Of a stretch of DNA of 64,000 bases, positions 48,101 to 62,434 are shown one piece after another. The stretch's first letter is position 1. Every line of letters begins with the position of its first letter. The notes under the pieces are model-generated. The model was not told the origin of the DNA and made no database searches. It was given only the letters and a program-made list of their open reading frames with translations. The stretch is from Burkholderiales bacterium (GTDB lineage: Bacteria; Pseudomonadota; Gammaproteobacteria; Burkholderiales; Burkholderiaceae_D), in contig JACPWS010000046.1 of NCBI GenBank assembly GCA_016196925.1, positions 1 to 64,000 on the forward strand, read 5' to 3'. The position numbers and the translations under genes were made by a program.

Positions 48101-48176
48101 GCGGGAATAGCTCAGTTGGTAGAGCGCAACCTTGCCAAGGTTGAGGTCGAGAGTTCGAGACTCTTTTCCCGCTCCA
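48101..48176 (+). tRNA. tRNA-Gly (GCC), copy 1
   Basis: Acceptor GCGGGAA / TTCCCGC, anticodon loop CTTGCCA-type with GCC, T-loop GTTCGAGA, encoded CCA. 76 nt. Confidence 0.97.
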
Positions 48177-48204
48177 GGTTTTTAGCAGTGCCAGTAGTAC
48201 AAAT

Positions 48205-48280
48205 GCGGGAGTAGCTCAGTTGGTAGAGCGCAACCTTGCCAAGGTTGAGGTCGAGAGTTCGAGACTCTTCTCCCGCTCCA
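48205..48280 (+). tRNA. tRNA-Gly (GCC), copy 2
   Basis: Differs from copy 1 only in the acceptor stem pair change (GCGGGAG / CTCCCGC), a compensated substitution. Encoded CCA. 28 bp after copy 1, likely one transcript. Confidence 0.97.
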
Positions 48281-48287
48281 GGTTTTG

Positions 48288-48313
48288 AAGGGAAGCCAAG
48301 CTTCCCTTTTTTA
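48288..48313 (+). terminator. Terminator after the tRNA-Gly pair
   Basis: GGGAAGC / GCTTCCC with flanking A and T runs. Confidence 0.88.
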
Positions 48314-48398
48314 TTCAGTTGAATAGTTGTGCCACGTTTTAACGGTTGTTTTTCGGCGTCAGCAGAAAAACAGGTTTAACGTTAAAATAGCAACCTCT

Positions 48399-48472
48399 GG
48401 CGGGGTAGCAAAGTGGTTATGCAGCGGCCTGCAAAGCCGTTTACGCCGGTTCGATCCCGACCCCCGCCTCCA
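48399..48472 (+). tRNA. tRNA-Cys (GCA)
   Basis: Acceptor GGCGGGG / CCCCGCC, anticodon loop CTGCAAA with GCA, encoded CCA, 74 nt. Confidence 0.97.
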
Positions 48473-48478
48473 TATTTG

Positions 48479-48503
48479 AAAAGCGCTTTAGGGCGCTTTT
48501 TTT
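48479..48503 (+). terminator. Terminator after tRNA-Cys
   Basis: AAAGCGC / GCGCTTT around a short loop, then T's. Confidence 0.75.
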
Positions 48504-48545
48504 CCGCATAAAACAGTAAGCGCTACTGCGTATTTGTTTTAGTTG

Positions 48546-48632
48546 GCCCGGATGGTGAAATAGGTAGACACAAGAGACTTAAAATCTCTCGACTGAAAGG
48601 TCGTGCCGGTTCGATTCCGGCTCCGGGCACCA
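48546..48632 (+). tRNA. tRNA-Leu (TAA)
   Basis: Acceptor GCCCGGA / TCCGGGC, anticodon stem GAGA/TCTC with loop CTTAAAA (anticodon TAA), long variable arm, encoded CCA, 87 nt. Its 3' flank is duplicated 1.4 kb downstream. Confidence 0.97.
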
Positions 48633-49327: not shown

Positions 49328-49355
49328 TTGATTAAATACGTCTTTGCCGTATAAT
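49328..49355 (+). promoter_or_regulatory. Promoter of the toxin-antitoxin operon
   Basis: TTGATT (49328-49333), 16-nt spacer, perfect TATAAT (49350-49355). The usual start point, 7 nt past the -10 box, falls on the A of the toxin ATG at 49362. Confidence 0.75.
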
Positions 49356-49361
49356 CAGAAC

Positions 49362-49685
49362 ATGCGCACAATCATAGAGACCCCGACTTTTCAAAGGCTA
49401 TGGCCTGCTTATTGGACAGAAGAAGAAAGGGCGGAATTTGCCGCGCATCTGGCGCAAACCCCGGAAGCGGGCGATGTCGTCAAGGGTTCCGGCGGCGTTC
49501 GCAAGATCAGATGGAGCCGCAGCGGTGGCGGCAAGTCGGGCGGGGTGCGGGTGATTTATTACAACCGGCTGGCGAATGGTGAAATCGTGTTGTTGTTCAT
49601 CTATGCCAAAAACGAATTTGATTCAATTGCCGGTGAAAAACTGAAGGAGTTAAAAAATGCCATCGAAAAAGCCTATGGACGATAA
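49362..49685 (+). CDS. RelE/HigB-type toxin
   Basis: 107 aa from ATG 49362. The fold-diagnostic pattern is IRKIRWSRSG-like (VRKIRWSRSGGGKSGGVRVIYYNRL) followed by EIVLLFIYAKNEFDSI, typical of the HigB2 branch of RelE/ParE ribosome-dependent mRNA interferases or addiction killers. An upstream TTG (49344) would lie inside the promoter. There is no Shine-Dalgarno and the start coincides with the predicted transcript end, so the mRNA is probably leaderless. It overlaps the antitoxin gene by 29 nt. Toxin-first order matches HigBA systems. Confidence 0.82.
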   Translation: MRTIIETPTFQRLWPAYWTEEERAEFAAHLAQTPEAGDVVKGSGGVRKIRWSRSGGGKSGGVRVIYYNRLANGEIVLLFIYAKNEFDSIAGEKLKELKNAIEKAYGR

Positions 49686-49971
49686 AGCCCTGCGAGCATG
49701 GGAAGAGTCACGCGACCTGACCGCAGAATTAGAGCAATCCGTTAATGAGATGCTGGCTGGTCAAGGCAAGGCGGTGGCGGTGTCTCCTGTGGTGGCGGCA
49801 CGTATGCAGTCCGGCCTCTCGCAAAGCCTGTTTGCCAAGCTACTAGGGGTGTCTGTGCGCACTTTGCAAGAATGGGAGCAAGGGCGGCGCAAACCCTCTG
49901 GGGCGGCGCAAACCCTGCTGACGATTGCACAACGACACCCGGAAGTGTTGCAGGAACTGGCGGCGGCCTGA
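49657..49971 (+). CDS. HigA-type antitoxin (XRE family)
   Basis: 104 aa. An HTH of the XRE/Cro type lies at about 48-90 (VAARMQSGLSQSLFAKLLGVSVRTLQEWEQGRRKPSGAA). Good Shine-Dalgarno (AAGGAG, 6 nt upstream), inside the toxin gene. The antitoxin has a strong ribosome site while the toxin has none, which would favour antitoxin excess. Confidence 0.85.
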   Translation: MPSKKPMDDKALRAWEESRDLTAELEQSVNEMLAGQGKAVAVSPVVAARMQSGLSQSLFAKLLGVSVRTLQEWEQGRRKPSGAAQTLLTIAQRHPEVLQELAAA

Positions 49972-50779: not shown

Positions 50780-52438
50780 ATGGATACGAACTTTTTGTCG
50801 GGCGGCTGTCGGCGCTTAAGCGTCGTGGCCGCAAGTACGTTGATGGTTGCGGCATTGGGCATAGCGCCCGCGCATGCTATTGACAATCTTTTTTTTGAGC
50901 TTGACGCCAACGCCTTTAAAACTACTACGCGGGATGACTGGAACTCGATAAGCACCACGAAGACAACGGGAATCGTTAGCGATAGCGACCCGGCGGTATT
51001 TCGCCAGGGCTCCAAGGATATCCAGGATATTAGCCAGTGGCGTTTCGACCTCGGCTCCTCGCCACCCAAGGATGACATGTTGCACGCCTATGCTGCCGCA
51101 TACAATGCCACCGCGACTGGGAATGGGGCGACGTCAGGCGATCTGGTGATTTACTTCGGCGCCGACCGTGCTGCCTTTAACGGTACGGCCAGCCTCGGGT
51201 TCTGGTTCTTCAAGAATCCGGTTGCACGAAACAATGCGACCGGCGCCTTCGTCGATCCGAGTACCGGTTTGCCGGCGCACCACGCCGACGGGGATACCCT
51301 GATTGCCTTCGAGTACACCAACGGTGGCGCGGTGACCGGCGTGCGCGTCTTCAAATGGATGAGTGGTGCACTGTCCGACATGGGAACGATAGGGGTTTCC
51401 CCAACCAGCACGGCCGGCATGTACTGTGACGGCAGCGATCATATTTGCGGCGGAACCAATCCCGGTAACATTCCCCTTCCCTGGACTGGCACCACGGTAG
51501 CGGCTGGGCAATTCTTCGAAGGTGGCATCAACATCAGCGCCGTGGTCGGAGGCGACACTTGTTTTTCCAGTTTCATGGCGACTAGCCGCTCGTCGGATCA
51601 GTCCAACGCCTCGATCAAGAATTTCATCCTGCACAGTTTCCCAGTGTGCCACGTGAGCGTCAGCAAGAGCTGTCCTAGTGCCAGCTTCAATGCAAGCAAT
51701 AACATGGCTACATACACAATCAACGGCAAGATTTTGAACGATGGCGGCGGATTGCTGTCGTCCATTACTCTGAGCGACAACCCCGCGATCGATAGCGGTT
51801 CACTCGGTTACTTTACTTGTCTAGCTGGGACGAATACTCCTGACCCGACAAAACCGCTTGCTGCCAATAGCACACTTGTGCCGAACGCATCGCTCTGCTA
51901 CCAGGCCACGTCGACGTTAGCCACCCTGGTGACAACGGATACGGTGACGGTGACCGCCTCGACAGGTGCCGGCACGGTGACCAATACTGCAACCGCGACC
52001 TGCCCTTCACTTGCTCCGCCGGCTGGTCTCGCGGTGACTAAGAGTTGCGACGTCGATCTGGTCGCTGCCAGCAACGAACTGTCTGTGAAGGTCAATTACA
52101 GCGGTACAGTGCAAAATACTGGACAGGTTGCATTGAGCAATGTGAAGGTTTGTGAGGTGCACGAGGTGGTTGAGACCAATCCCCCCACTTATCCTTGTGA
52201 TGTTACACCCCATACTGAGATCAACATCGGAACGCTGGCTGTCGGGGAATCCAAACCTTACAGCGGCTTTTACGTTCCGACCAATGCATTGAACATAAAC
52301 GGTGGATCGGCGCTGTTGCTGCCGCACACCGCCGTGTTCCAGGATAAGGTCGGTGGAGTGGGAACCGGGCCAGCGATCTTTGGTAGCTTGCCTGCCGTTG
52401 CTACCCCGGTCCAGGCTACATGCCCGATGTGCCCATGA
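50780..52438 (+). CDS. Large exported protein with DUF11-like repeats
   Basis: 552 aa. Sec signal peptide, cleaved near AHA-ID at residue 33-34. The N-terminal domain (about 34-290) has a DDMLHAYAAAY ... GDLVIYFGADRAA ... GFWFFKNPV pattern shared with exported beta-rich proteins of Burkholderiales and actinobacteria. Two C-terminal modules (about 295-410 and 418-552) look like DUF11/Ig-like repeats: VSKSCPSASF ... and VTKSCDVDLV. About 19 Cys, including a closing CPMCP. No anchor seen. Function unknown. GGGGAA Shine-Dalgarno. Confidence 0.7.
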   Translation: MDTNFLSGGCRRLSVVAASTLMVAALGIAPAHAIDNLFFELDANAFKTTTRDDWNSISTTKTTGIVSDSDPAVFRQGSKDIQDISQWRFDLGSSPPKDDMLHAYAAAYNATATGNGATSGDLVIYFGADRAAFNGTASLGFWFFKNPVARNNATGAFVDPSTGLPAHHADGDTLIAFEYTNGGAVTGVRVFKWMSGALSDMGTIGVSPTSTAGMYCDGSDHICGGTNPGNIPLPWTGTTVAAGQFFEGGINISAVVGGDTCFSSFMATSRSSDQSNASIKNFILHSFPVCHVSVSKSCPSASFNASNNMATYTINGKILNDGGGLLSSITLSDNPAIDSGSLGYFTCLAGTNTPDPTKPLAANSTLVPNASLCYQATSTLATLVTTDTVTVTASTGAGTVTNTATATCPSLAPPAGLAVTKSCDVDLVAASNELSVKVNYSGTVQNTGQVALSNVKVCEVHEVVETNPPTYPCDVTPHTEINIGTLAVGESKPYSGFYVPTNALNINGGSALLLPHTAVFQDKVGGVGTGPAIFGSLPAVATPVQATCPMCP

Positions 52439-52556: not shown

Positions 52557-53060
52557 ATGAATTTCAAGGTATGGCAGATAGGCTTGGCGGTCGCGACGGC
52601 GGCACTCTCATTCGCCGGTCCAGCCTGGTATATGGCCAGGCAAGATAGCGCGGAAAATCCAATGCCATTCGCAGCAGTGCATGAACCAGTGCAGGCCGAC
52701 GGGGTGTTTGCCTGGCCTTTTGCGGTCTCGAACCAGAGTGATTATACCCGCGTCGATGGACGTTGGACTGGTGTAGTCGAAATGGGACGGGGTGCAAAAG
52801 TTCAGTTCAGTTTCAACTTCCAGCAAGCGGCGGATGGCCGGCTGACGGGGAATGCAACCTTTCCTGTGGGCGAGGGCAGCATTCTGGATGGCAAGGTCGT
52901 GGGTGGCAGGCTATCGTTCAGTACGCAACACCGCCTGCAAAAAAGTGGGCAAACCCTGGTCACCAGATTTGTTGGCAACCTGTCCGATGGCGTGATCGCT
53001 CTCGATATGCAAAGCGAAGGCGGTGTCAGCAAGCTTACCCTCAATCGTGTCTCTCATTAA
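52557..53060 (+). CDS. Small exported beta-rich protein
   Basis: 167 aa. An N-terminal hydrophobic segment (IGLAVATAALSFAGPAWYMA) may be a signal peptide or anchor. The rest is a small beta-barrel-like domain: GRWTGVVEM ... KVQFSFNFQQAADGRLTGNATFPVGEGSILDGKVVGGRLSF ... RFVGNLSDGVIALDM. This pattern is widespread in secreted proteins, where it appears as a lipocalin-like add-on domain of unknown role. AAGGAG lies 4 nt before the ATG; a GTG at 52554 overlaps it. Likely regulated separately from the upstream gene because a terminator intervenes. Confidence 0.6.
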   Translation: MNFKVWQIGLAVATAALSFAGPAWYMARQDSAENPMPFAAVHEPVQADGVFAWPFAVSNQSDYTRVDGRWTGVVEMGRGAKVQFSFNFQQAADGRLTGNATFPVGEGSILDGKVVGGRLSFSTQHRLQKSGQTLVTRFVGNLSDGVIALDMQSEGGVSKLTLNRVSH

Positions 53061-53061
53061 A

Positions 53062-53096
53062 AAGCAAGCGGGAAAATCTCCCGCTTGCTTGTTGTT
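53062..53096 (+). terminator. Terminator after the small exported protein
   Basis: AAGCAAGCGGGA (53062-53073) pairs perfectly with TCCCGCTTGCTT (53079-53090), then GTTGTT. Confidence 0.85.
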
Positions 53097-53105
53097 AACG
53101 CGGCC

Positions 53106-53116
53106 GGGGGGGGGGG
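53106..53116. repeat. Run of 11 G
   Basis: A homopolymer of G in non-coding DNA between two convergent genes. Slippage-prone, but no reading frame or promoter depends on it visibly. Confidence 0.7.
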
Positions 53117-53130
53117 CTAATACTGGCCCG

Positions 53131-53164
53131 GAAGGGTGAAGCCAGGTCTGCATTCTCACCCTTC
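53131..53164 (-). terminator. Inverted repeat after the metalloprotease gene
   Basis: GAAGGGTGA (53131-53139) and TCACCCTTC (53156-53164) are perfect inverted repeats, 22 bp past the protease stop. There is no T run on the minus strand, so it may need Rho or simply protect the mRNA 3' end. Confidence 0.45.
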
Positions 53165-53185
53165 AATCAACCCGAACATCTTCCC

Positions 53186-55186
53186 TTATTGCACCGTAAA
53201 ATTAGCGCTAGCGGTGGCAGTCAGCGATAAGCCGCTGGCGTAGCCGCTCAACTGATAGCTGCCGCTGGTATTTTTACGGCCTATCTTGTAGCTTCCGACG
53301 GCAACGCCATTGCTGTCGGTGGTGGTCATCAATGTCGTTGTCGTGCCGTTCGGTTGCTTCACGGTGAAAGTGACCGAGGCGCCGGCCACCGCAGTGGTGC
53401 CCGACTTGACGGTGGATGTCATCTTAACCGTTTGCCCTGCAGAGTAGCTTGCCTTGTCGGTCATGACGGTGGCTTGCAGCCCTGTGCCTACCTGGTAGTT
53501 GGCGGTGGCGCTACCTGTGTAAGCGGTGGCCGAGCTATTGGCGACACTGATGCCTACCGCATTGCTGCCGGTGGCGGTGGTAGGCGAAGTGATGCTGAGC
53601 GTGGTGCTGGCGCTGGCACCCGGTGCGACCGACAGTGTAGGGGCGGCAAAACTACCGCTCCAGCCGCTCGGTGGTGTTGCCTTCAGTGCAAAGCTCGATG
53701 TGCCGCAAGCGGTATTGTCGTTATTGGTCACGGTCACGCTATAAGTCAGGGTTGTGCCTGCGCTGCCAGACAAGCTTTGGCTCGATGGCGTCAACACAGG
53801 GTTGGCGTGCCCGCAAGCCGTGGTCGTTGAGCTGTAGCTGACATTGACGCCGGCGCTGCTGCCATTCATGCTGGTTACAGTGATGCTCACGCCAGCTACC
53901 GTATCGCTATAGCTCTTGCCGACGGTCAGTGCGGGGTCGTTCCAATCAAAAGAGACGCTGTTCGGTGTCATGTCCAGCAGATTGCTCGTGTTCGGATCTG
54001 ACTCTGATCCAACGTGAATTACAACGCCGCTGGTGAAATTGCTGTAATACAATGCAGTAAGGGATTGGTCGAAGCCAAGTGCGGTGCGGTATTCGACGTA
54101 GTACCAGGTGCGCGCGCCGGTGGTGGGGTCAGTACTCTTCAGTATTTTCAGTGCCTTGGGGGTCGTGTTAGTTGTTTCATAGGCATCCAGCGTGTAACTG
54201 CCGCTGCTCTGCACGTAAGTAATAGGCGCTGTGGTGGCGCTGTTCAACCAGCCGAGACGCTCTTTTTGGAACGTATTGAAATGCCCGGTCTGGCCCGACC
54301 CGGTATCGCCCATGATGTCGCCGGAATCACCGTATTCAACTAAGGTGCAGGTGCTGCCTATCACACTGGCGCCGCACTCTTGCGCATGCGAATGGTAGAG
54401 GCCGAAATTATGTCCGAGCTCGTGGCTGACGACTCGGATAGTTTGCAGTCCATTGATTGCGATGTCGCCCGTGGAGCCTCCCACCGTTCCCATTCCACCC
54501 CAACCGCATGTGTTGTTCTGCGGGAAAAAATAAATGTAATGGGAATAACCGGTCAAACTGATCCCCGCTGCGGTGGCGGATTGTTTGGCATAAGTGGCAA
54601 TTTGGTTCAGGTCGCAACTGCTCGCGATCGGCAGGGTGAGCCAGCCATAGCCTGCACCCGCGATCGAGGTTTGCTGGAAAGAGTTTTCCTTGAAGAAGTT
54701 GTTGGACTGGGTAAATACGAGGTTATTGGCGTCCGCTACTGTAAACGGTTGGGTGGTGTTGTCCTGGAAATTCACCAGCAACACCAAGGCCTTATGCTCA
54801 CCTAAGGTATTTGGCAATGGGGCTGGTGAGGTGACCGTAAGGCTGGAGGTGCCGGTCGTGCTGACCGCCAGGACATTGCCGGTTTGCTCACCTGTTACCT
54901 TCAACTTCATTCCTGTTTTCAGCTGCGGTGCCTTTCCTTTGAATTGAAGTTCGATCCGCTCAGTCGCGGTTTTCAGGAAATGGCGGGTGCGGCTGGTTTT
55001 ATTTTCGAAGTGGTCCTCGATCAATACCTGCAATTCGCCTTGGGTTTGCACCTTGCGAGCGTTTTGTGTGGCATTTTGAGCGTGCACAGGATCTGCTGAC
55101 AGGAATAATCCTGCGGCAAGTAACAGCGGGGTAAAGAATTTGGCGAGCGCGAATTGGCCGCCTGCGACAGGACGTGCTTGATGCAT
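53186..55186 (-). CDS. Secreted metzincin-like metalloprotease with C-terminal Ig-like domains
   Basis: 666 aa. Sec signal peptide (FFTPLLLAAGLFLSADPVHA). A propeptide-like region is followed by the catalytic domain, where SHELGHNFGLYH gives HExxHxxGxxH (His255, Glu256, His259, Gly262, His265) and DIMGD supplies the Met-turn (Met292). This fits the gametolysin (M11) type of metzincin. C-terminal modules are a NEW3-like domain (about 455-565) and a Big-type Ig repeat (about 575-665). The ATG at 55186 has GGAG 7 nt upstream; a frame from 55225 starts in a hairpin and is rejected. A c-di-GMP riboswitch precedes it. Confidence 0.88.
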   Translation of the reverse strand: MHQARPVAGGQFALAKFFTPLLLAAGLFLSADPVHAQNATQNARKVQTQGELQVLIEDHFENKTSRTRHFLKTATERIELQFKGKAPQLKTGMKLKVTGEQTGNVLAVSTTGTSSLTVTSPAPLPNTLGEHKALVLLVNFQDNTTQPFTVADANNLVFTQSNNFFKENSFQQTSIAGAGYGWLTLPIASSCDLNQIATYAKQSATAAGISLTGYSHYIYFFPQNNTCGWGGMGTVGGSTGDIAINGLQTIRVVSHELGHNFGLYHSHAQECGASVIGSTCTLVEYGDSGDIMGDTGSGQTGHFNTFQKERLGWLNSATTAPITYVQSSGSYTLDAYETTNTTPKALKILKSTDPTTGARTWYYVEYRTALGFDQSLTALYYSNFTSGVVIHVGSESDPNTSNLLDMTPNSVSFDWNDPALTVGKSYSDTVAGVSITVTSMNGSSAGVNVSYSSTTTACGHANPVLTPSSQSLSGSAGTTLTYSVTVTNNDNTACGTSSFALKATPPSGWSGSFAAPTLSVAPGASASTTLSITSPTTATGSNAVGISVANSSATAYTGSATANYQVGTGLQATVMTDKASYSAGQTVKMTSTVKSGTTAVAGASVTFTVKQPNGTTTTLMTTTDSNGVAVGSYKIGRKNTSGSYQLSGYASGLSLTATASANFTVQ

Positions 55187-55189
55187 GGT

Positions 55190-55218
55190 GGATCTCCATA
55201 AAAATACATGAAAGATCC
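55190..55218 (-). promoter_or_regulatory. Shine-Dalgarno-masking hairpin
   Basis: On the minus strand GGATCT (55218-55213) can pair with AGATCC (55195-55190), whose first two bases belong to the GGAG ribosome site (55197-55194). It is a possible expression platform of the riboswitch upstream. An upstream ACTCAA / TTGAGT pair (minus strand, near 55238-55218) competes with it. Confidence 0.45.
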
Positions 55219-55250
55219 CACTCAAGACTTATTATTGAGTCGTAACTACT

Positions 55251-55343
55251 CTCTTTTTTCGGCGATCCGGCCATCTCGATGCTGCTGAGATCCGTGACTC
55301 TGCGTGCCCCAATCACTTGAGGGTTGCCATTTATCGAAAAGAG
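55251..55343 (-). ncRNA. c-di-GMP-I (GEMM-I) riboswitch
   Basis: Reading the minus strand: P1 is CTCTTTTCG (55343-55335) with CGAAAAAAGAG (55261-55251). The conserved GGCAAC follows. P2 is CCC-(T)-CAA closed by a GNRA loop GTGA (55316-55313) and TTGGGG. Then come CACGCAGAGTCACGG and P3 (ATCTC / GAGAT, 55291-55287 with 55277-55273). The closing GATGGCCGGATCGCCGAA is close to the GEMM consensus. The two variations from the usual wording (GGCAACCC for GGCAAACC, CACGCAGAG for GACGCAAAG) are mild. It sits 65 nt before the protease start. Confidence 0.85.
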
Positions 55344-55722
55344 ATCTTTCGGTTTAATGCTATTTAAATGCTTTGCGCGAACTTAATAACGCAAAACAAT
55401 TTCTTGGTAGCAAATTTTTTTGCCACGTTCGATTAGACAGCGTAATTACAGCACGAGTTCCGCTGTTTTAAAAATTCTTAAAAAATTTTTTAAATTTATT
55501 TATTCGATGGTTTCAAGCCAGAATACGCTTTTATTTTGAAGTGCACAAGGGAAAGTATTTCTGCATCGCAATAAGTATTTAAAGTCGGATGCAGCCATTT
55601 ATTTGTCCCTCCCTAAAAAGTTTCATATACTTAATGGACGAGGTTTGGATTGGATCGCGCACGAATAGTTCCGACCGGTATCTTGTACCGGCGGAAGTAT
55701 TTGGCTCGCAAGAAGGAAGCAA

Positions 55723-56349
55723 ATGTCCAATATTACGGTGCTGAACGGGTGTAACGACGTCTCTGTTCAGGAATCACTGCGGACTGCTCTGGATTTGCAT
55801 GAAGGAATCAGCCTGCTGGACGAGGTCTGGGATGATGACATGCAACTCTTGGCTCTTGCGCGTAACTTGAAACCGGACGTGTTTTTGATGGAAGCGGCAT
55901 GTCATTCTATCGATGGGGTGTCGTTGCTGCTTCAAGTCCACGTGGCAAGCCCGGTGACGAAGATACTACTGTTTTGTGAATCCTGGGGACGTCAGGATGT
56001 CGTCGAGGCCCTGGGGAATGGCGCCAAAGGTTGCATAGGAAAAACATCTGCGCCGGCGCAATGGCTGAAAGCCATACGTTTGATTCATGACGGCGATATC
56101 TGGATCGATAGGCATTTGCTGGCGGAGGCGCTGATTGCCTTGTTACACGATATCCCAGGCAAATATCATTTGCTGGAATCGAAGCCGGAAATATTGACGG
56201 AAAGAGAGCGGGAAGTCGTCCGTTGGGTCGAACTGGGCATGACAAATAAAGAAATTGCACGACAGATGAATATCAGTGACACCACAGTGAAGACCCATCT
56301 TCAGCATATCTTCGGCAAATTGCACATAGGGCGACGCTCGATGTTGTGA
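55723..56349 (+). CDS. LuxR/NarL-type regulator with degenerate receiver domain
   Basis: 208 aa. The N-terminal half has the receiver fold, but the acidic pocket is lost (VLNGCNDVSV in place of VDDH) and the phosphoacceptor Asp is Glu57 in DVFLMEAACHSIDG. The C-terminal LuxR HTH (about 158-205) is intact: LTEREREVVRWVELGMTNKEIARQMNISDTTVKTHLQHIF. The protein ends soon after KLHIGRRSML, slightly short for the family. AAGGAAG Shine-Dalgarno. Divergent from the protease, so the protease or the exported proteins are plausible targets. Phosphorylation-independent action is inferred. Confidence 0.85.
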   Translation: MSNITVLNGCNDVSVQESLRTALDLHEGISLLDEVWDDDMQLLALARNLKPDVFLMEAACHSIDGVSLLLQVHVASPVTKILLFCESWGRQDVVEALGNGAKGCIGKTSAPAQWLKAIRLIHDGDIWIDRHLLAEALIALLHDIPGKYHLLESKPEILTEREREVVRWVELGMTNKEIARQMNISDTTVKTHLQHIFGKLHIGRRSML

Positions 56350-56721: not shown

Positions 56722-58116
56722 TTAACGCTTCACTTCGCTGCTGGCTAAATGTAGCGTTGGTTCCTGAGCGGGGCCTAACAGCGCCAGTTGCGTTTTTATA
56801 TCTTTTCCCAGCACCAGCCGGAGATCGGTGTTGTTGCGCAGGTGTTCGCTCTGTACCAGGATAGGCGTCTTGAGCATCCGCTTGCTTAGCATGAGAGCCT
56901 GCCCCTGAAATGTCGCCCGATATTGGATGATGGTCTGCGGCTCACGATATGGTTTGATGTTGGTGAGTCTTGCGGAGGGTAAGCCGCGCGACACCAGCGT
57001 TTTTCCGACTTTTTTCGCCATCCCGGTGACCCCGTTGCCGTTTGCTATTTCCAGACGAAAAGCCTTGGTTTGTTCCTGCGCGGCTAACTGTGTTGCCGGC
57101 GATGCTATAGCCGGCGCTATAGCCGGTACAACAGCCGGTACAACAGCCGGTACGGGGCGGATTGCCGTCTTGGCGAAATTAATCGGCGGCATGGCCAGCG
57201 CCTGGTTAAGCGTGAACGCCAATGCTGGCGGGCCGGCGAGTTGCGTGAGGTCTGCGATCTGCAGCGACTGCGCTGCCTGCGTGACCGGTTGCGACAAATC
57301 GATAGGCATGCTGGTTTCTGTCGGTGCGATTTCTATACTTTTTGCAACGGAGAGCGCAATGCTGTCATGCAGGACAGGTAATTGATAAGGTGTGAAAATG
57401 TTAACGAGAGCAATCGATTTTGGTTCTGTGAGCAGAATCGGGCCGGCCGCGCTGCCGGTAATGGCCGTAGACGGCGTGGCGATTTCAGCCGTACTGGAAA
57501 CGGGCGGGGCGATAGCTGCGGGAGCCGGATTGACGGCCGCCATAGCGGGTGATTTTTCAATGCGTGCTGCTGCGGCGGAATTCAATTCTTCTGCCCGTAG
57601 GAAAGCCAGACGCGATTTTTTTGTATCGCCCAGTTGCCGGTAGACCGCTCCCAGATTATTGTAAGCGCGCTGGTTGTCCGGCTCCAGCGCGACGGTTTTT
57701 TCATAGGCCGTTACCGCATCGGCGAAATTACCCTGCAAATAATAGGTATAGCCGAGATTGTTATACACGCGCGCCACGTCGGGTACGATCTTTAGCGCGG
57801 CGCTCAATTCGCTGATGGCTTCGTTAAATTTGCCTTGTTTTGAATACACCACGCCGAGCGCATTGCGGGCGTCCACGTAGCTGGCGCTCTGTCTGATTGC
57901 ATTGCGGTAGGCTTCTGCCGCCAGCTCCAGGCGGTTTTGTCCGAGGTAATAACGCCCCAGTTGATAATAGCCAAGCGCGGTTTTGTCGGCGCCGCTGACT
58001 TTCATCAGCGGTTCTATGCGCGTTTTGGATAGCGGTGGTGTCGTGTCCGTCGTGCTGCAACTGAACAGGACGGGCAAGGCGCCGATTAAGGGGAGAAGGA
58101 AGTAATTTTTTTTCAT
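56722..58116 (-). CDS. TPR lipoprotein with LytR_C domain (Tad-locus TadD-like)
   Basis: 464 aa. Lipobox LFSC after MKKNYFLLPLIGALPV. TPR repeats span about 45-190 (ALGYYQLGRYYLGQNRLELAAEAYRNAI, AYNNLGAVYRQLG). A Pro/Ala-rich linker carries a 12-bp tandem repeat, then a LytR_C-type domain (about 365-450: RLEIANGNGVTGMAKKVGKTL ... TDLRLVLGKD). This TPR plus LytR_C plan is typical of tad pilus clusters. The ATG at 58116 has AAGG upstream. It ends the minus-strand tad run. Confidence 0.82.
   Translation of the reverse strand: MKKNYFLLPLIGALPVLFSCSTTDTTPPLSKTRIEPLMKVSGADKTALGYYQLGRYYLGQNRLELAAEAYRNAIRQSASYVDARNALGVVYSKQGKFNEAISELSAALKIVPDVARVYNNLGYTYYLQGNFADAVTAYEKTVALEPDNQRAYNNLGAVYRQLGDTKKSRLAFLRAEELNSAAAARIEKSPAMAAVNPAPAAIAPPVSSTAEIATPSTAITGSAAGPILLTEPKSIALVNIFTPYQLPVLHDSIALSVAKSIEIAPTETSMPIDLSQPVTQAAQSLQIADLTQLAGPPALAFTLNQALAMPPINFAKTAIRPVPAVVPAVVPAIAPAIASPATQLAAQEQTKAFRLEIANGNGVTGMAKKVGKTLVSRGLPSARLTNIKPYREPQTIIQYRATFQGQALMLSKRMLKTPILVQSEHLRNNTDLRLVLGKDIKTQLALLGPAQEPTLHLASSEVKR
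57107..57154. repeat. Four tandem 12-bp units inside the TPR lipoprotein gene
   Basis: ATAGCCGGCGCT, ATAGCCGGTACA, ACAGCCGGTACA and ACAGCCGGTACG. On the coding strand they encode VPAV/APAI-type four-residue repeats in the linker. In frame, so copy-number change would only alter linker length. Confidence 0.85.
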
Positions 58117-58186
58117 GATGCACACCTTTTTCTGCCTTTAATCGGGTTGCAAGCGAGGGCTTGCAACCCGGATACTAGTCGTTGAA

Positions 58187-60373
58187 CTAGTCGTTGATAG
58201 TGAAAGACTGTGGGGTGATGACGCCGAGCGGGGTCGTTACTTTCACGGTCAAGAATCCGCTTGAAACTGGATTGGAGCAGACCAGGGCCGGGTCTTGTGT
58301 GGCATCGCCTTGTATCAGCAAGCGATAAGTCCACACCGCTGAGTTTGGTTCATTTGTGTTCGGCACGGTAAAGCTGGTGTCGCTGAGTATGGTGCCGTTG
58401 GAGGTTGAGAACGTAATGGTGGTACCGGCCGGCAGTATGTTGCCGGGCAAGGCATTACCAGCGAAGAAAGTCGGATTTTGGTCCCGCACCGCGATTTGGA
58501 AGATCTTGGCGCTATTGACAAACTTTGTGCCATCTACGCAACGGTCAAGTGGCGGCGCATCCACTAAAGTAATTTCTGCCTTGCTGGTGGAAAACACCAG
58601 CACGAAGGCGTCGCGCACGTGAATCGTCGGCATCGTGCCGTTTGGAGCGGTCTGCAAGACGCCATGGTAGAAACCGTCGCCGCTGCTATTCCAGGTTCCG
58701 AGGCCATCGCTGTCAATATACGGCTCGCCGACTGCAGGTGCGGTGGCGGGATTGTTACCGTTATTGACGTCTTTAGCTTCCTTATCTGTGATCGCGCGGT
58801 CATAGCGGAACGGTTCGCGCAAATCCGTAAATGTCTCACCGACGTCGTAACTGTTGATGACGTTGGGGGACGCAGGATTGTCTATGAAGCTCTCTTCACC
58901 CAGGGCATAACCCAGCACAGTGACGCGGCCATTAACCGGACGTGGATTCTGGCAAATGAACCTGGCCTGGCATTGACCAGGTGTGCCTTTTTGCAAAATT
59001 TTCGTGCCGTCGGTCAGCGTGGTCTGATTCAAGCCGGTCAGGCAGGAAGCGTCAACGGCACCGCCCTCGGTGGTAAAACTGACCCCGGTGCCGTCCGGTA
59101 CCGGATTATGGAAGTGGTCTGCAACGAAGGCCGAGACGGTTGTAAAGTCGGTGCCGTCGTGATTCATGCATTCGACGTTGTACACTGAAGGGCTGATCGT
59201 AAAGCTGTTTTGATCCGGGATGCCGGTAGAAACGATCAACTGATCGGACATGCTGGAAATGGCCGTACCCCTGATAGTTGCCAGTACCCGTACCGGGGTG
59301 TTGACGATGCCGGCCGCAACCACGGTGGCTACCGTACCATCGGCGCCGGAATTGGCAAACGCTGGATTCAGGCTCAGGCCGCCGGCAGTCGTGGTTAACT
59401 TGAAGTCGACTACGGTGCCGGCAGTTGGGTTGCCGTTCTTATCGAGAACCTTGAACGTCACGCTGGAGCTTTCCTGGCGCCCGGCGCCGCCTGTGCCTTT
59501 CAGCGCGATATTCTGCGGCAGGGCCGAGACGAAGGCGATCTGCCCCGCGGTCGCGGCCAGTACGGTGATGGTGCCGGTTTGTGTAAAGCTGGTGCCGGCC
59601 AGGCTGGTACTTGCCGTAATGATGTCGGCACCGCCGCAACCTTTGTCCGTGTAAGAGGTAGTGGCGACGCCATTGACGGTGGTGACCGGCGAGCTGATCG
59701 TGGCCTTGCCAGCGCTGGCGCACGGCGACGTGAAGCTGACCGATTGCGCCGGCGTGAAGACGCTGGCCCCATTCATGATCGTGGTGCTGACGCTGGCCGT
59801 ACCTCCGGCGGACAGGGTGGACGGTGCGAGCGCGAGGGCGCTCAGTGTCAGCGACGGAAAGCTGACCGTGTAGGCCAGCGAGCCGGAGCTGGCAACGCCG
59901 CCGGCCGCCGTGCTGGCCGTCACGGTAAATGCCCCGGCTTGCGAACCGGCAACCAGGCTTACTTTTGCCAGGCCGTTGGCGTCGGTCAGGGCGGTACCCG
60001 ACGAGGGGACGAAAGTGCCGGTTTTGTCCGCGCTGATGAAGCTGACTGCAACGTTAGCTACCGCGCTGCCTTTACTATCCTTGACCAAAGCCTGCAGTAT
60101 TCCCGGTGCGTCAGGGGATATGCCGGTAATGACTGCTCCGGCTGCGCTCATCAGGGCTAGCGTGACGGTGGGCTGCGAGGTCGTACTGGTGTTGCCGGTG
60201 CCGGTCCCAGTACCTGTACCAGTACTGCCGGTACCACTTCCTCCGCAAGCGCTCAGATTGCCTTGCGAGCAAAGCGATGGCGACTGGGCATCGCTACCGC
60301 CCCCGCAAGCAGTGAGACCGAGTGCCAGGCTTATGGCGCAGGCTTTGATCATCTGGATAGTTGTTGTTTTCAC
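58187..60373 (-). CDS. Ig-like (Big_1-type) lipoprotein in the tad cluster
   Basis: 728 aa. Lipobox LGLTAC, then a GTGTGTGTGTG-type low-complexity linker encoded by a GGTACC/GGTACT-type microsatellite (about 60196-60240). At least three Ig-like domains of the invasin Big_1 family follow (VTLALMSAAGAVITG ... LQALVKDSKGSAVANVAVSF; LKGTGGAGRQESSSVTFKVLDKNGNPTAGTVVDF; a later Cys-containing part). It lies 124 bp downstream of tadC. A surface adhesin or pilus-associated protein is the best guess. Confidence 0.78.
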   Translation of the reverse strand: MKTTTIQMIKACAISLALGLTACGGGSDAQSPSLCSQGNLSACGGSGTGSTGTGTGTGTGNTSTTSQPTVTLALMSAAGAVITGISPDAPGILQALVKDSKGSAVANVAVSFISADKTGTFVPSSGTALTDANGLAKVSLVAGSQAGAFTVTASTAAGGVASSGSLAYTVSFPSLTLSALALAPSTLSAGGTASVSTTIMNGASVFTPAQSVSFTSPCASAGKATISSPVTTVNGVATTSYTDKGCGGADIITASTSLAGTSFTQTGTITVLAATAGQIAFVSALPQNIALKGTGGAGRQESSSVTFKVLDKNGNPTAGTVVDFKLTTTAGGLSLNPAFANSGADGTVATVVAAGIVNTPVRVLATIRGTAISSMSDQLIVSTGIPDQNSFTISPSVYNVECMNHDGTDFTTVSAFVADHFHNPVPDGTGVSFTTEGGAVDASCLTGLNQTTLTDGTKILQKGTPGQCQARFICQNPRPVNGRVTVLGYALGEESFIDNPASPNVINSYDVGETFTDLREPFRYDRAITDKEAKDVNNGNNPATAPAVGEPYIDSDGLGTWNSSGDGFYHGVLQTAPNGTMPTIHVRDAFVLVFSTSKAEITLVDAPPLDRCVDGTKFVNSAKIFQIAVRDQNPTFFAGNALPGNILPAGTTITFSTSNGTILSDTSFTVPNTNEPNSAVWTYRLLIQGDATQDPALVCSNPVSSGFLTVKVTTPLGVITPQSFTIND

Positions 60374-60496
60374 GATTGCAATCCTTGATTGATAGCGGCA
60401 AACAAGAGCGTCGCCACATCGCTTTTTTCAGACTGTTTTTGTCAAACTGTTTCAAACCGGATGCCACACATAGACCTGGATACTCAAATACGTGAT

Positions 60497-61432
60497 TCAA
60501 CTTGTACGCGAGATGATGGCGTGATAAATCTGTATCGCGGCCGGCCCGACCAATACCATCAGCAAGGCAGGGAAAATACAAAATATCAAAGGGAATAACA
60601 GCTTTAGCGCAATCTTTGCGGCAGCTTCTTCGGCGCGCTGGCGACGCTTGGTGCGCAGGTGCTCCGAGTGGACGCGCAAGGCATCCCCTATGCTGGTACC
60701 GAAGCGTTCGGCCTGGATCAGCATTCCCACCAGCGTGTCAACGTCCTCTACCCCTGTGCGCATGGCGAGGTTGCGTAAGGCTTTTTCCTTGCTGTTGCCG
60801 GCACGTAGCTCCAGCGTCACCAGATGCAGTTCTTCGCTGATCACCGGCGCTACCGGATTCATTTCCTGTGCAACGCGGGCGATCGCCGCATCCATGGCCA
60901 GACCGGCCTCAATGCATATCGTCATCAAGTCCAGTGCGTCCGGGATGTTTTCGAATATCGTTAATTTGCGCGCCGCGATCAGGCGCCTGACGATCAGATT
61001 AGGCAAATAAAAACCGATAGCTGCAGCGACGAGCAGGATAACGATCAGCTGATTGGTGCTCAGCGTGCTTAAGGAGTTGACGAGTATCGCCCATAACAAA
61101 ATTGGGGTTAGCGCGGCCAGCAAGGTTTTGACTGAAAAATAAATCACAGGCGCATGTTCGGAACGCAGGCCGGCGTTCATGAAGCGGGTGCGCAAGACGG
61201 AATTTTCCCATCCTTCTTCCGGCATCGATAATTTCGCCAGCGGGCTGCTTAATTGCGCAACTTTGGCCACCCAATCTACTTTTTCCCTGCGCTCGGCTGG
61301 CACCGGCGATTCTCCCAATTTTTGCAGACGTTGTTGCGTTTGCGAGGGCAGCAGGTAGCGCATCAGCATCATTGCGCCGCCGAACACCGCGAAAAAGAAT
61401 GCGACCAGAAATAAAATGTAAATGTTAGGCAT
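60497..61432 (-). CDS. tadC: Tad pilus inner-membrane protein TadC
   Basis: 311-aa T2SF-family membrane protein that pairs with TadB to form the pilus platform. One N-terminal and at least three further hydrophobic segments. The T2SF domain has PDALDLMTICIEAGLAMDAAIARVAQEM and RTGVEDVDTLVGMLIQAERFGTSIGDALRVHSEHLRTKRRQRAEE. 24 bp after tadB. Confidence 0.9.
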   Translation of the reverse strand: MPNIYILFLVAFFFAVFGGAMMLMRYLLPSQTQQRLQKLGESPVPAERREKVDWVAKVAQLSSPLAKLSMPEEGWENSVLRTRFMNAGLRSEHAPVIYFSVKTLLAALTPILLWAILVNSLSTLSTNQLIVILLVAAAIGFYLPNLIVRRLIAARKLTIFENIPDALDLMTICIEAGLAMDAAIARVAQEMNPVAPVISEELHLVTLELRAGNSKEKALRNLAMRTGVEDVDTLVGMLIQAERFGTSIGDALRVHSEHLRTKRRQRAEEAAAKIALKLLFPLIFCIFPALLMVLVGPAAIQIYHAIISRTS

Positions 61433-61456
61433 GAGTTTTCTCCATGTACGCTGGAA

Positions 61457-62434
61457 TTACACCCTGATACGTATCAGTTTGCGCATCCAGAACACGCCGA
61501 CCACCATCAGTGTCCCCATCACCATGAGCATTTTTTCACCGACAGGATCGGTCCATAGCAAGCTCATGAATTTGGGATTAACTAGCTGCAACACCGCCGC
61601 CATTGCGAAAGGCAGCAAGCCCAATACCCATGCAGACAGACGCCCTTCGGCGGAAAATACCTGGATCTGGCCGAACAGCTTGAGCCGTTCGCGCACGATG
61701 GTTGCAATGTTGTTCAGCAATTCAGTCAGGTTGCCGCCGGTCTCACGCTGGATCAATACTGCAACCACAAAAAAGCCGACATCGGTTTCCGGTACGCGGG
61801 TCGCCAGATTGGCCAGCGCGTCTTGCATCGATACCCCGTAGTTGACCTCATCGAATACGATGCGGAATTCTTCTGCGATCGGGGAAGGTATTTCATCACC
61901 GACCATTTTGATCGCCGATGGCAAGGCATGACCTGCGCGCATGGCGCGGCTCATCAGATCCAGAGCGTCCGGCAACTGCTCCTCTATCCTGGTTAAGCGT
62001 TTGCGCCTTTTGCTCAGCACCACTAACCACGGGAAGAACAATGCAACAAGCGCCAGCCCCAACGCGGGCAACGCAGGTACGTGTATCAACCATAGCAAGA
62101 TCAGCGCCATCGCTCCGCAGCCCAGTGACGCCATAAGAAAACGCGCCACATTCAGCGTCATCCCCGATTGCTCCAACAATCTATCCAGACTATGGATGCG
62201 CGGCACCATCAACAATATCCGCTGTATTCCTTGCGACTCGCTTAACAGGCGAGTTTTGAGTATGGATATGTTGCTATGGTCGATGTGGGAACCAGCTGAC
62301 ATCACTTGCAAGCGATGCGCGATACGTTTTGCTTCCGGCCCATGCGATGTATTCCAAGTTACATAGACACCTTCAATCAACAATACGACGGCGATGAAGG
62401 TTGCTAGCACAAAGAAAATATACAGATAATCCAT
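61457..62434 (-). CDS. tadB: Tad pilus inner-membrane protein TadB
   Basis: 325-aa T2SF-family protein. The domain signature LPDALDLMSRAMRAGHALPSAIKMVGDEIPSPIAEEFR and RVPETDVGFFVVAVLIQRETGGNLTELLNNIATIVRERLKL are clear. Several membrane segments. 39 bp after tadA. Confidence 0.9.
   Translation of the reverse strand: MDYLYIFFVLATFIAVVLLIEGVYVTWNTSHGPEAKRIAHRLQVMSAGSHIDHSNISILKTRLLSESQGIQRILLMVPRIHSLDRLLEQSGMTLNVARFLMASLGCGAMALILLWLIHVPALPALGLALVALFFPWLVVLSKRRKRLTRIEEQLPDALDLMSRAMRAGHALPSAIKMVGDEIPSPIAEEFRIVFDEVNYGVSMQDALANLATRVPETDVGFFVVAVLIQRETGGNLTELLNNIATIVRERLKLFGQIQVFSAEGRLSAWVLGLLPFAMAAVLQLVNPKFMSLLWTDPVGEKMLMVMGTLMVVGVFWMRKLIRIRV

Follow-up and report, generated by a model that had tools for sequence, protein, structure and literature searches.

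The window, by which we mean the whole 64-kb stretch of DNA analysed here, encodes on its minus strand a putative secreted protease whose leader contains a riboswitch aptamer together with four segments, A to D, and on its plus strand one gene convergent with and one gene divergent from that of the protease:

50780 to 52438, plus strand: convergent gene for a secreted-looking beta-sandwich protein with DUF7507, ending in CPMCP (Pfam; relatives beside the protease; alignment A6; structure model)
53186 to 55186, minus strand: putative secreted M11-type metzincin protease of 666 aa, starting at ATG 55186 (Pfam scan; zinc motif)
55190 to 55200, minus strand: segment D, UAUGGAGAUCC, containing the Shine-Dalgarno GGAG (55197-55194) and forming a predicted hairpin with C (-12.5 kcal/mol)
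55210 to 55219, minus strand: segment C, GGGAUCUUUC, the anti-Shine-Dalgarno strand and complement of A (A:C pairing over 17 leaders)
55250 to 55261, minus strand: segment B, CG-AA-AAAAGAGA, the 3' strand of P1 (P1 pairs standard in the window)
55258 to 55338, minus strand: c-di-GMP-I (GEMM-I) aptamer with J1/2, P2 (GUGA loop), J2/3, P3 and J3/1 (RF01051, 45.2 bits; model R1, 46.4 bits)
55335 to 55350, minus strand: segment A and the 5' strand of P1 (read from the sequence; A:C duplex p = 0.010 versus shuffles; P1 covariation)
55723 to 56349, plus strand: divergent NarL/LuxR-type response regulator (Pfam; tblastn)

The protease, whose ATG lies 71 nt past the aptamer and 7 nt past GGAG, was assigned to Peptidase M11 on the basis of its match to PF05548 (E 3.2e-16, 59.7 bits, cut-off 21) and carries the metzincin zinc motif HExxHxxGxxH as HELGHNFGLYHSH. 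NPCBM_assoc and MG2 domains were identified in its C-terminal part (Pfam), and its N-terminus resembles a signal peptide by eye. It thus shares the zinc motif and the family match with Peptidase M11 (gametolysin, PF05548) but differs in being a bacterial protein and in carrying these two additional domains. When solved structures were searched with a three-sequence profile (A1), weak metzincin matches only were obtained, astacin being the best (E 0.0012).

Relatives of the convergent protein were found by tblastn in 19 of the 62 loci examined and in 16 of the 53 named relatives of the protease, in a search that reached only about 4 kb either side of the protease. The gene is convergent and downstream of the protease in 14 of these 16 loci, and lies on the other side in L062 and L079. 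Since six of the 16 (L045, L053, L059, L060, L069, and L077) are GEMM-linked, the convergent protein does not track the riboswitch. Its structure model is all-beta with modest confidence (mean pLDDT 65.9), and a fold search returned generic Ig-like matches with a query TM-score of up to 0.22 among the matches listed, which would support beta-sandwich domains and nothing further. Cysteines are shared among the 14 convergent proteins aligned in A6, as is a CxxC at the C-terminus that in most of them reads CPLCP or a variant of it; this CxxC (52421-52435 in the window) is conserved across phyla and could be a sorting or processing signal. We consider the protein a candidate substrate or partner of the protease.

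Relatives of the divergent LuxR-type regulator were also detected by tblastn upstream of Massilia and Pseudoduganella proteases. Adjoining the protease on the minus strand (56722-62434), two T2SSF-domain proteins and a TPR protein are encoded, which we take to be TadB, TadC, and TadD of a Tad/Flp pilus. On the far side of the locus, a RelE-type toxin and HTH antitoxin pair (49344-49971, plus strand) lies just past a cluster of four tRNAs (48101-48629), and the two together form a possible island boundary. An EAL phosphodiesterase 27 kb away had been offered by the initial annotation as a functional hint. This EAL domain lies in a 774-aa frame together with a GGDEF domain and is one of 27 EAL matches in the genome, beside 50 GGDEF matches; it is therefore uninformative, and we rejected it as a functional link.

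A GEMM-I riboswitch had been proposed for the protease leader, along with a covariance-model run against RF01051. Scanning the 64-kb window against all Rfam families with cmscan yielded six matches, namely five tRNAs and one riboswitch, the latter being a full-length match (model positions 1-87) to RF01051, c-di-GMP-I, at 55338-55258 on the minus strand with 45.2 bits and an E of 1.3e-05, above the gathering cut-off of 35 bits. Moreover, model R1, built from alignment A4 of 30 other GEMM-I aptamers without the window, scored the same site at 46.4 bits (E 6.3e-10 in 552 kb). No protease relative was found within about 1.5 kb either side of the 30 source loci of R1 (tblastn with 54 proteases, E <= 1e-3), although the product downstream of L027 is a reprolysin-like metzincin with 22.8% identity to the window protease (blastp, small protease set). 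By model score, the window element is a member of the c-di-GMP-I riboswitch class, as the initial annotation had it, and all the parts named there could be located: P1, P2 with its GUGA loop, CACGCAGAG, P3, and GGCCGGAUCGCCGAA. The range first given, 55251-55343, includes most of P1, which by pairing extends from U55344 to A55250. The element is the sole RF01051 match of the whole 3.5-Mb genome (94% complete); family-wide, 153 of 392 genomes contain at least one match at E <= 0.001. Pseudoduganella violacea, Massilia sp. BJB1822, and Massilia agrisoli belong to this family, as their GEMM-I positions recur on identical contigs and bases among its genomes.

In Vc2 numbering, which follows the accessible parts of PMC3764141 and PMC4744006, the three bases described in these parts as contacting the ligand, G20, A47, and C92, are all kept in the window aptamer. 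C44 and G83 of the interhelical C44-G83 pair are present in 73 of 73 parsed aptamers, the window included, in a comparison set of 74 that contains near-copies and of which one (L109) was not parsable. The window departs from class-conserved bases at three positions: A48G and G42C each occur in the window alone among the 73 (position 42 being U in L057 and L060), and A25C is found in two of the 73, the window and L045. Since recognition requires G20, C92, A47, and A48 according to the accessible part of PMC3764141, the window aptamer with its A48G, A25C, and G42C may bind more weakly, and a reduced affinity is possible. Judged from the sequence, these departures lower confidence in the strength of binding, not in the model match. 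The P2 loop is GUGA, a GNRA loop of the sort that prefers docking on CU:AG, and P3, where its receptor would lie, is an uninterrupted AUCUC/GAGAU helix containing CU:AG.

Protease relatives were found at 53 loci when 84,980 species genomes were searched, and R1 detected a GEMM-I element directly upstream and on the same strand in 19 of them, so that the pairing with a secreted M11-like metzincin noted in the window recurs; one further element, at L071, lies on the opposite strand. Sixteen of the 19 linked relatives scored 41.5-66.2 bits with R1. Linked loci span beta- and gamma-proteobacteria, one member of Desulfobacteraceae, and a Rokubacteria MAG, and the organisms include Marinobacterium, Pontibacterium, Neptuniibacter, Amphritea, Tolumonas, Aromatoleum, Azoarcus, and a Desulfobacteraceae MAG. 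As about two thirds of the linked loci belong to Oceanospirillaceae, the 19 are not independent. RF01051 matched in 34 of the 49 genomes holding relatives, and with only one to eight matches in each, it is very unlikely that one would fall by chance within about 500 nt of any particular gene. R1 gave no match in nine additional protease loci (L033, L034, L138-L142, L145, and L146, where L033 and L034 repeat L040 and L047).

On a tree of 51 proteases, drawn without L085-L087, the GEMM-I label needs six changes, at least five of which are forced by well supported branches, compared to a mean of 15.9 changes for shuffled labels, none of the 500 shuffles being as low as six. The window protease falls in one group with L035-L037, from Pseudoduganella and Massilia (100/100 support), and these nearest kin have no GEMM-I at the protease. 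Within the genus, the protease was found in one of 43 genomes, the window's own, and within the order a protease match was obtained in nine of 399 genomes, including the window's own and two weak ones. The distribution of the pairing is thus patchy, and the pairing itself is old, mobile, or frequently lost.

The aptamer is embedded in a platform shared by 17 leaders, window included, in which A lies 5' of the aptamer and is accompanied by its P1 partner B, by C, and by D. Within segment A, GAAAGAUC (55350-55343) pairs with segment C, and the 3' part, UCUCUUUU-CG (55344-55335), pairs with B to form P1. Typically, A reads GAAAGAUCCUCUCC just 5' of the aptamer, B reads GGAGAG right after it, C reads GAGGAUCUUUC, and D, the Shine-Dalgarno strand, is often GGAGAUUC; the window leader has the layout of its linked relatives in different letters. 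From the end of the aptamer to the ATG used, 63-73 nt were counted in the window and 16 linked loci.

Both competing helices covary across the 17 leaders. For P1, 129 of 136 cells hold standard pairs and double changes occur in six of the eight pairs; the window takes part in five of these six, its eight scored pairs all being standard and five of them changed on both sides relative to the commonest pair. For A:C, 179 of 187 cells hold standard pairs and nine of 11 pairs are double-changed, mostly owing to L060 and L045. When A was paired with the C of another leader, an equally good result was reached in three of 2000 permutations (nine rows, chosen as divergent). Compared to dinucleotide shuffles, A:C reached p <= 0.05 in all 17 platform leaders (window p = 0.010) and in only two of 33 other GEMM-I loci; look-alikes of A and C in L109 and L111, which are GEMM-I loci with no protease link, gave p values of 0.270 and 0.070. 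Of 19 leaders, 16 have a Shine-Dalgarno hairpin C:D at p <= 0.05, and three fall short of this: the window (p = 0.060), L073 (0.127), and L077 (0.073). In Azoarcus and Aromatoleum (L075 and L063), GEMM-I is present without an A:C helix (p 0.997 and 0.837) in longer leaders of 119 and 114 nt, and in L053, where the start codon is ambiguous, A:C is borderline (p 0.060); the energy and covariation counts leave out these three. Decayed leaders were sought among the unlinked relatives, and GATCTTTC, GAAAGATC, and ACGCAAAG were absent from a stretch of 500 nt preceding the first in-frame ATG in 30 loci, that is, 30 of the 31 unlinked loci among L035-L084 (L037 being without in-frame ATG), with L085-L087 left out. 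The recurring pairing, the aptamer match, the covariation of P1 and A:C, and the Shine-Dalgarno hairpin are properties of the compared sequences themselves.

By eye, an inverted repeat of the GCGG-GAAAACAGTA-CCGC type was seen shortly 5' of segment A in L058, L059, L061, L066, L069, L072, and L081, and perhaps represents an operator or a further RNA hairpin.

The energies of A:C and C:D were compared in ViennaRNA for the 17 leaders, with the pairs of P1 and the aptamer core either enforced or P1 forbidden. Formation of P1 moved the balance from A:C towards C:D in all 17, by +1.7 (window) to +10.8 kcal/mol, a shift whose positive sign partly follows from the nucleotides common to A:C and P1. 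With P1 formed, C:D beats A:C in every leader by 3.1 to 9.3 kcal/mol; without P1, A:C is ahead in eight leaders and C:D in nine, including the window (+1.4 kcal/mol). Predicted exposure of the Shine-Dalgarno sequence fell by about 0.1 or more in nine of the 17 leaders when the aptamer was formed, and by less than 0.1 in eight, among them the window, where this sequence is mostly paired in both states (unpaired 0.05 overall and 0.01 with the aptamer formed); in L038 there was no drop (0.44 and 0.44). Taken together, the modelled energies lean towards an OFF switch at the level of translation, a direction on which the initial annotation was silent. We set aside an intrinsic terminator as a means of controlling transcription, since a consensus scan found no terminator-like site on the minus strand at 53000-55750, which favours control of translation.

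Our preferred reading, to which we attach a probability of roughly 0.58, is that the c-di-GMP-I riboswitch controls translation of the secreted M11-type protease as an OFF switch; the ligand, the direction, the substrate, and the physiology are what we infer here. At low c-di-GMP, A would pair with C, leaving C unable to hide the Shine-Dalgarno sequence, and the protease would be made. Upon binding of c-di-GMP, the aptamer and P1 would take up the 3' half of A, C would then fold back on D, and with the Shine-Dalgarno sequence sequestered the protease would not be made. The protease would accordingly be produced as cells leave the sessile state, and its targets would be surface or matrix proteins, with the secreted Ig-like neighbour as a candidate. 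If this holds, an mRNA leader ties c-di-GMP directly to secreted proteolysis, and does so in many bacteria beyond Clostridioides. Simple mutations would suffice to probe the mutually exclusive helices of the leader (C:D versus A:C, where P1 overlaps A:C), and the candidate protease-substrate pair, encoded side by side, offers a testable route by which cells leave surfaces.

The same elements could also be arranged as an ON switch, in which c-di-GMP closes P1, A:C pairs as a coaxial extension of P1 (P0), the Shine-Dalgarno sequence is freed, and the protease is made at high c-di-GMP. The GAAAGAUC part of A overlaps P1 by only a few bases, so that P0 and P1 can coexist, and a constrained fold of the window with both drawn comes to -42.0 kcal/mol, whereas P1 with C:D comes to -45.1 kcal/mol. 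Neither coaxial stacking nor tertiary contacts enter the energy model, and stacking of A:C on P1 would favour the ON direction; an ON-type GEMM-I, Vc1, is reported in the accessible part of PMC4744006. Against this stands the uniform advantage of C:D over A:C once P1 is formed, and we regard an ON switch as unlikely, if worth keeping in mind.

Slightly less probable, in our judgement, is an aptamer that has kept its fold while losing affinity or changing its ligand through A48G, G42C, and A25C, leaving regulation weak or expression constitutively low. The uniqueness of A48G among the 73 aptamers and the Shine-Dalgarno sequence predicted to be mostly paired in both states are in line with such a loss, as is the RF01051 score of 45.2 bits compared to 89.5 down to about 68 bits for the family, among the matches listed, which leave out the weaker ones. 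However, G20, A47, C44, G83, and C92 are kept, P1 pairing has been retained through five double changes, which suggests selection, and 16 of the 19 linked relatives likewise have only the R1 scores of 41.5-66.2 bits given above. The cGAMP-type GEMM riboswitches carry a G20A change, and its absence from the window argues against an altered ligand of that kind. A chance pairing, with the riboswitch serving something else or being a relic and the protease an accidental neighbour, could be read from the presence of GEMM-I in at least 33 of the 43 genus genomes, of which one has the protease, and from the closest protease kin being without riboswitch, but it is contradicted by GEMM-I at that place in 19 of 53 relatives and by the spacing and platform conserved in 16 of the 19, and we hold it to be very improbable.

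The window riboswitch can be compared with described systems. Vc1 of Vibrio cholerae is, in the accessible part of PMC4744006, an ON-type GEMM-I that leads gbpA by an unclear mechanism, with no apparent terminator or anti-Shine-Dalgarno; Vc2 is given as a translational OFF switch in the accessible part of PMC9262584, and its mechanism is called unknown in that of PMC4744006. The window aptamer resembles both in its fold and in the pocket bases G20, A47, and C92, and differs in A25C, G42C, A48G, the GUGA loop, and the plain P3 helix. It is moreover like Vc1 in lying in the leader of a gene for a secreted protein; unlike Vc1 as described in the same part of PMC4744006, leaders of the window type conserve a hairpin that would sequester the Shine-Dalgarno sequence, along with a competing strand 5' of the aptamer. 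A further system is Cdi-1-12 of C. difficile, a class-I riboswitch that precedes the ZmpI/PPEP-1 metalloprotease and acts as an OFF switch; ZmpI is repressed by c-di-GMP and cuts surface proteins that c-di-GMP induces (accessible parts of PMC6200980 and PMC6366702). A class-I c-di-GMP riboswitch before a secreted zinc metalloprotease is common to both, but the window protease matches M11, its control is predicted at translation, its occurrence is mostly in proteobacteria, and its substrate is only a candidate. GEMM regulons are described in the accessible part of PMC3766115 as comprising polysaccharide degradation and mostly unknown genes. In the literature searched, mostly without subscription papers, we found no report of a GEMM-I/M11-protease pairing, although the original GEMM papers may list it, nor did we find an earlier description of this conserved, covarying translational platform; the target, the platform, and the spread are thus the new part, the riboswitch class being known.

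Beyond single leaders, R1 detected 11 GEMM-I copies in four Oceanospirillaceae stretches, two or three in each and 5-12 kb apart:

L147, positions 270, 6991 and 13850: GEMM-I array (R1)
L148, positions 242, 6990 and 13884: GEMM-I array (R1)
L149, positions 313 and 5496: GEMM-I array (R1)
L150, positions 257, 12649 and 17981: GEMM-I array (R1)

Judged by the frames after them, eight of the 11 copies lead relatives of the M11-type protease and three lead something else, which in two cases (L147 and L148) is a secreted protein, that of L147 matching Big_7 and dockerin. Large SpaA/DUF7507/Ig-like proteins are encoded between the array leaders on the opposite strand, and the seven non-protease proteins scanned from these stretches (six neighbours and the Big_7 protein) all match SpaA, DUF7507, Big_3_5, or Big_7, two of these matches being below the cut-off of Pfam. 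We raise, as a tentative proposal that we consider doubtful as a whole, a widespread module outside Clostridia in which a c-di-GMP-I riboswitch and its fixed A/B/C/D translational platform would be joined to an M11-type protease, the Ig/SpaA-type surface protein encoded nearby being the substrate of that protease. If such a module exists, c-di-GMP would set the time at which surface proteins are shed, with RNA as the only intermediary. The module would then parallel ZmpI and its surface substrates in C. difficile while using a different protease, and in some Oceanospirillaceae it would be repeated in arrays.

Among the proteins scanned, other GEMM-I elements of the window's family lead He_PIG Ig-repeat lipoproteins, S8 subtilases, a reprolysin-like protein, and a DUF4402 protein. 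As GEMM-I precedes S8 subtilases with Ig domains in Pseudoduganella, Massilia, and relatives (L094, L106, L133, and L134), riboswitch control of proteases in this family is probably not confined to M11. Large He_PIG Ig-repeat lipoprotein-like proteins follow GEMM-I in L118, L119, L120, L125, and L129, from the genus and family of the window, and in L150 an open frame that by eye begins like a Flp/Tad pilin follows a GEMM-I at a distance of about 500 nt.
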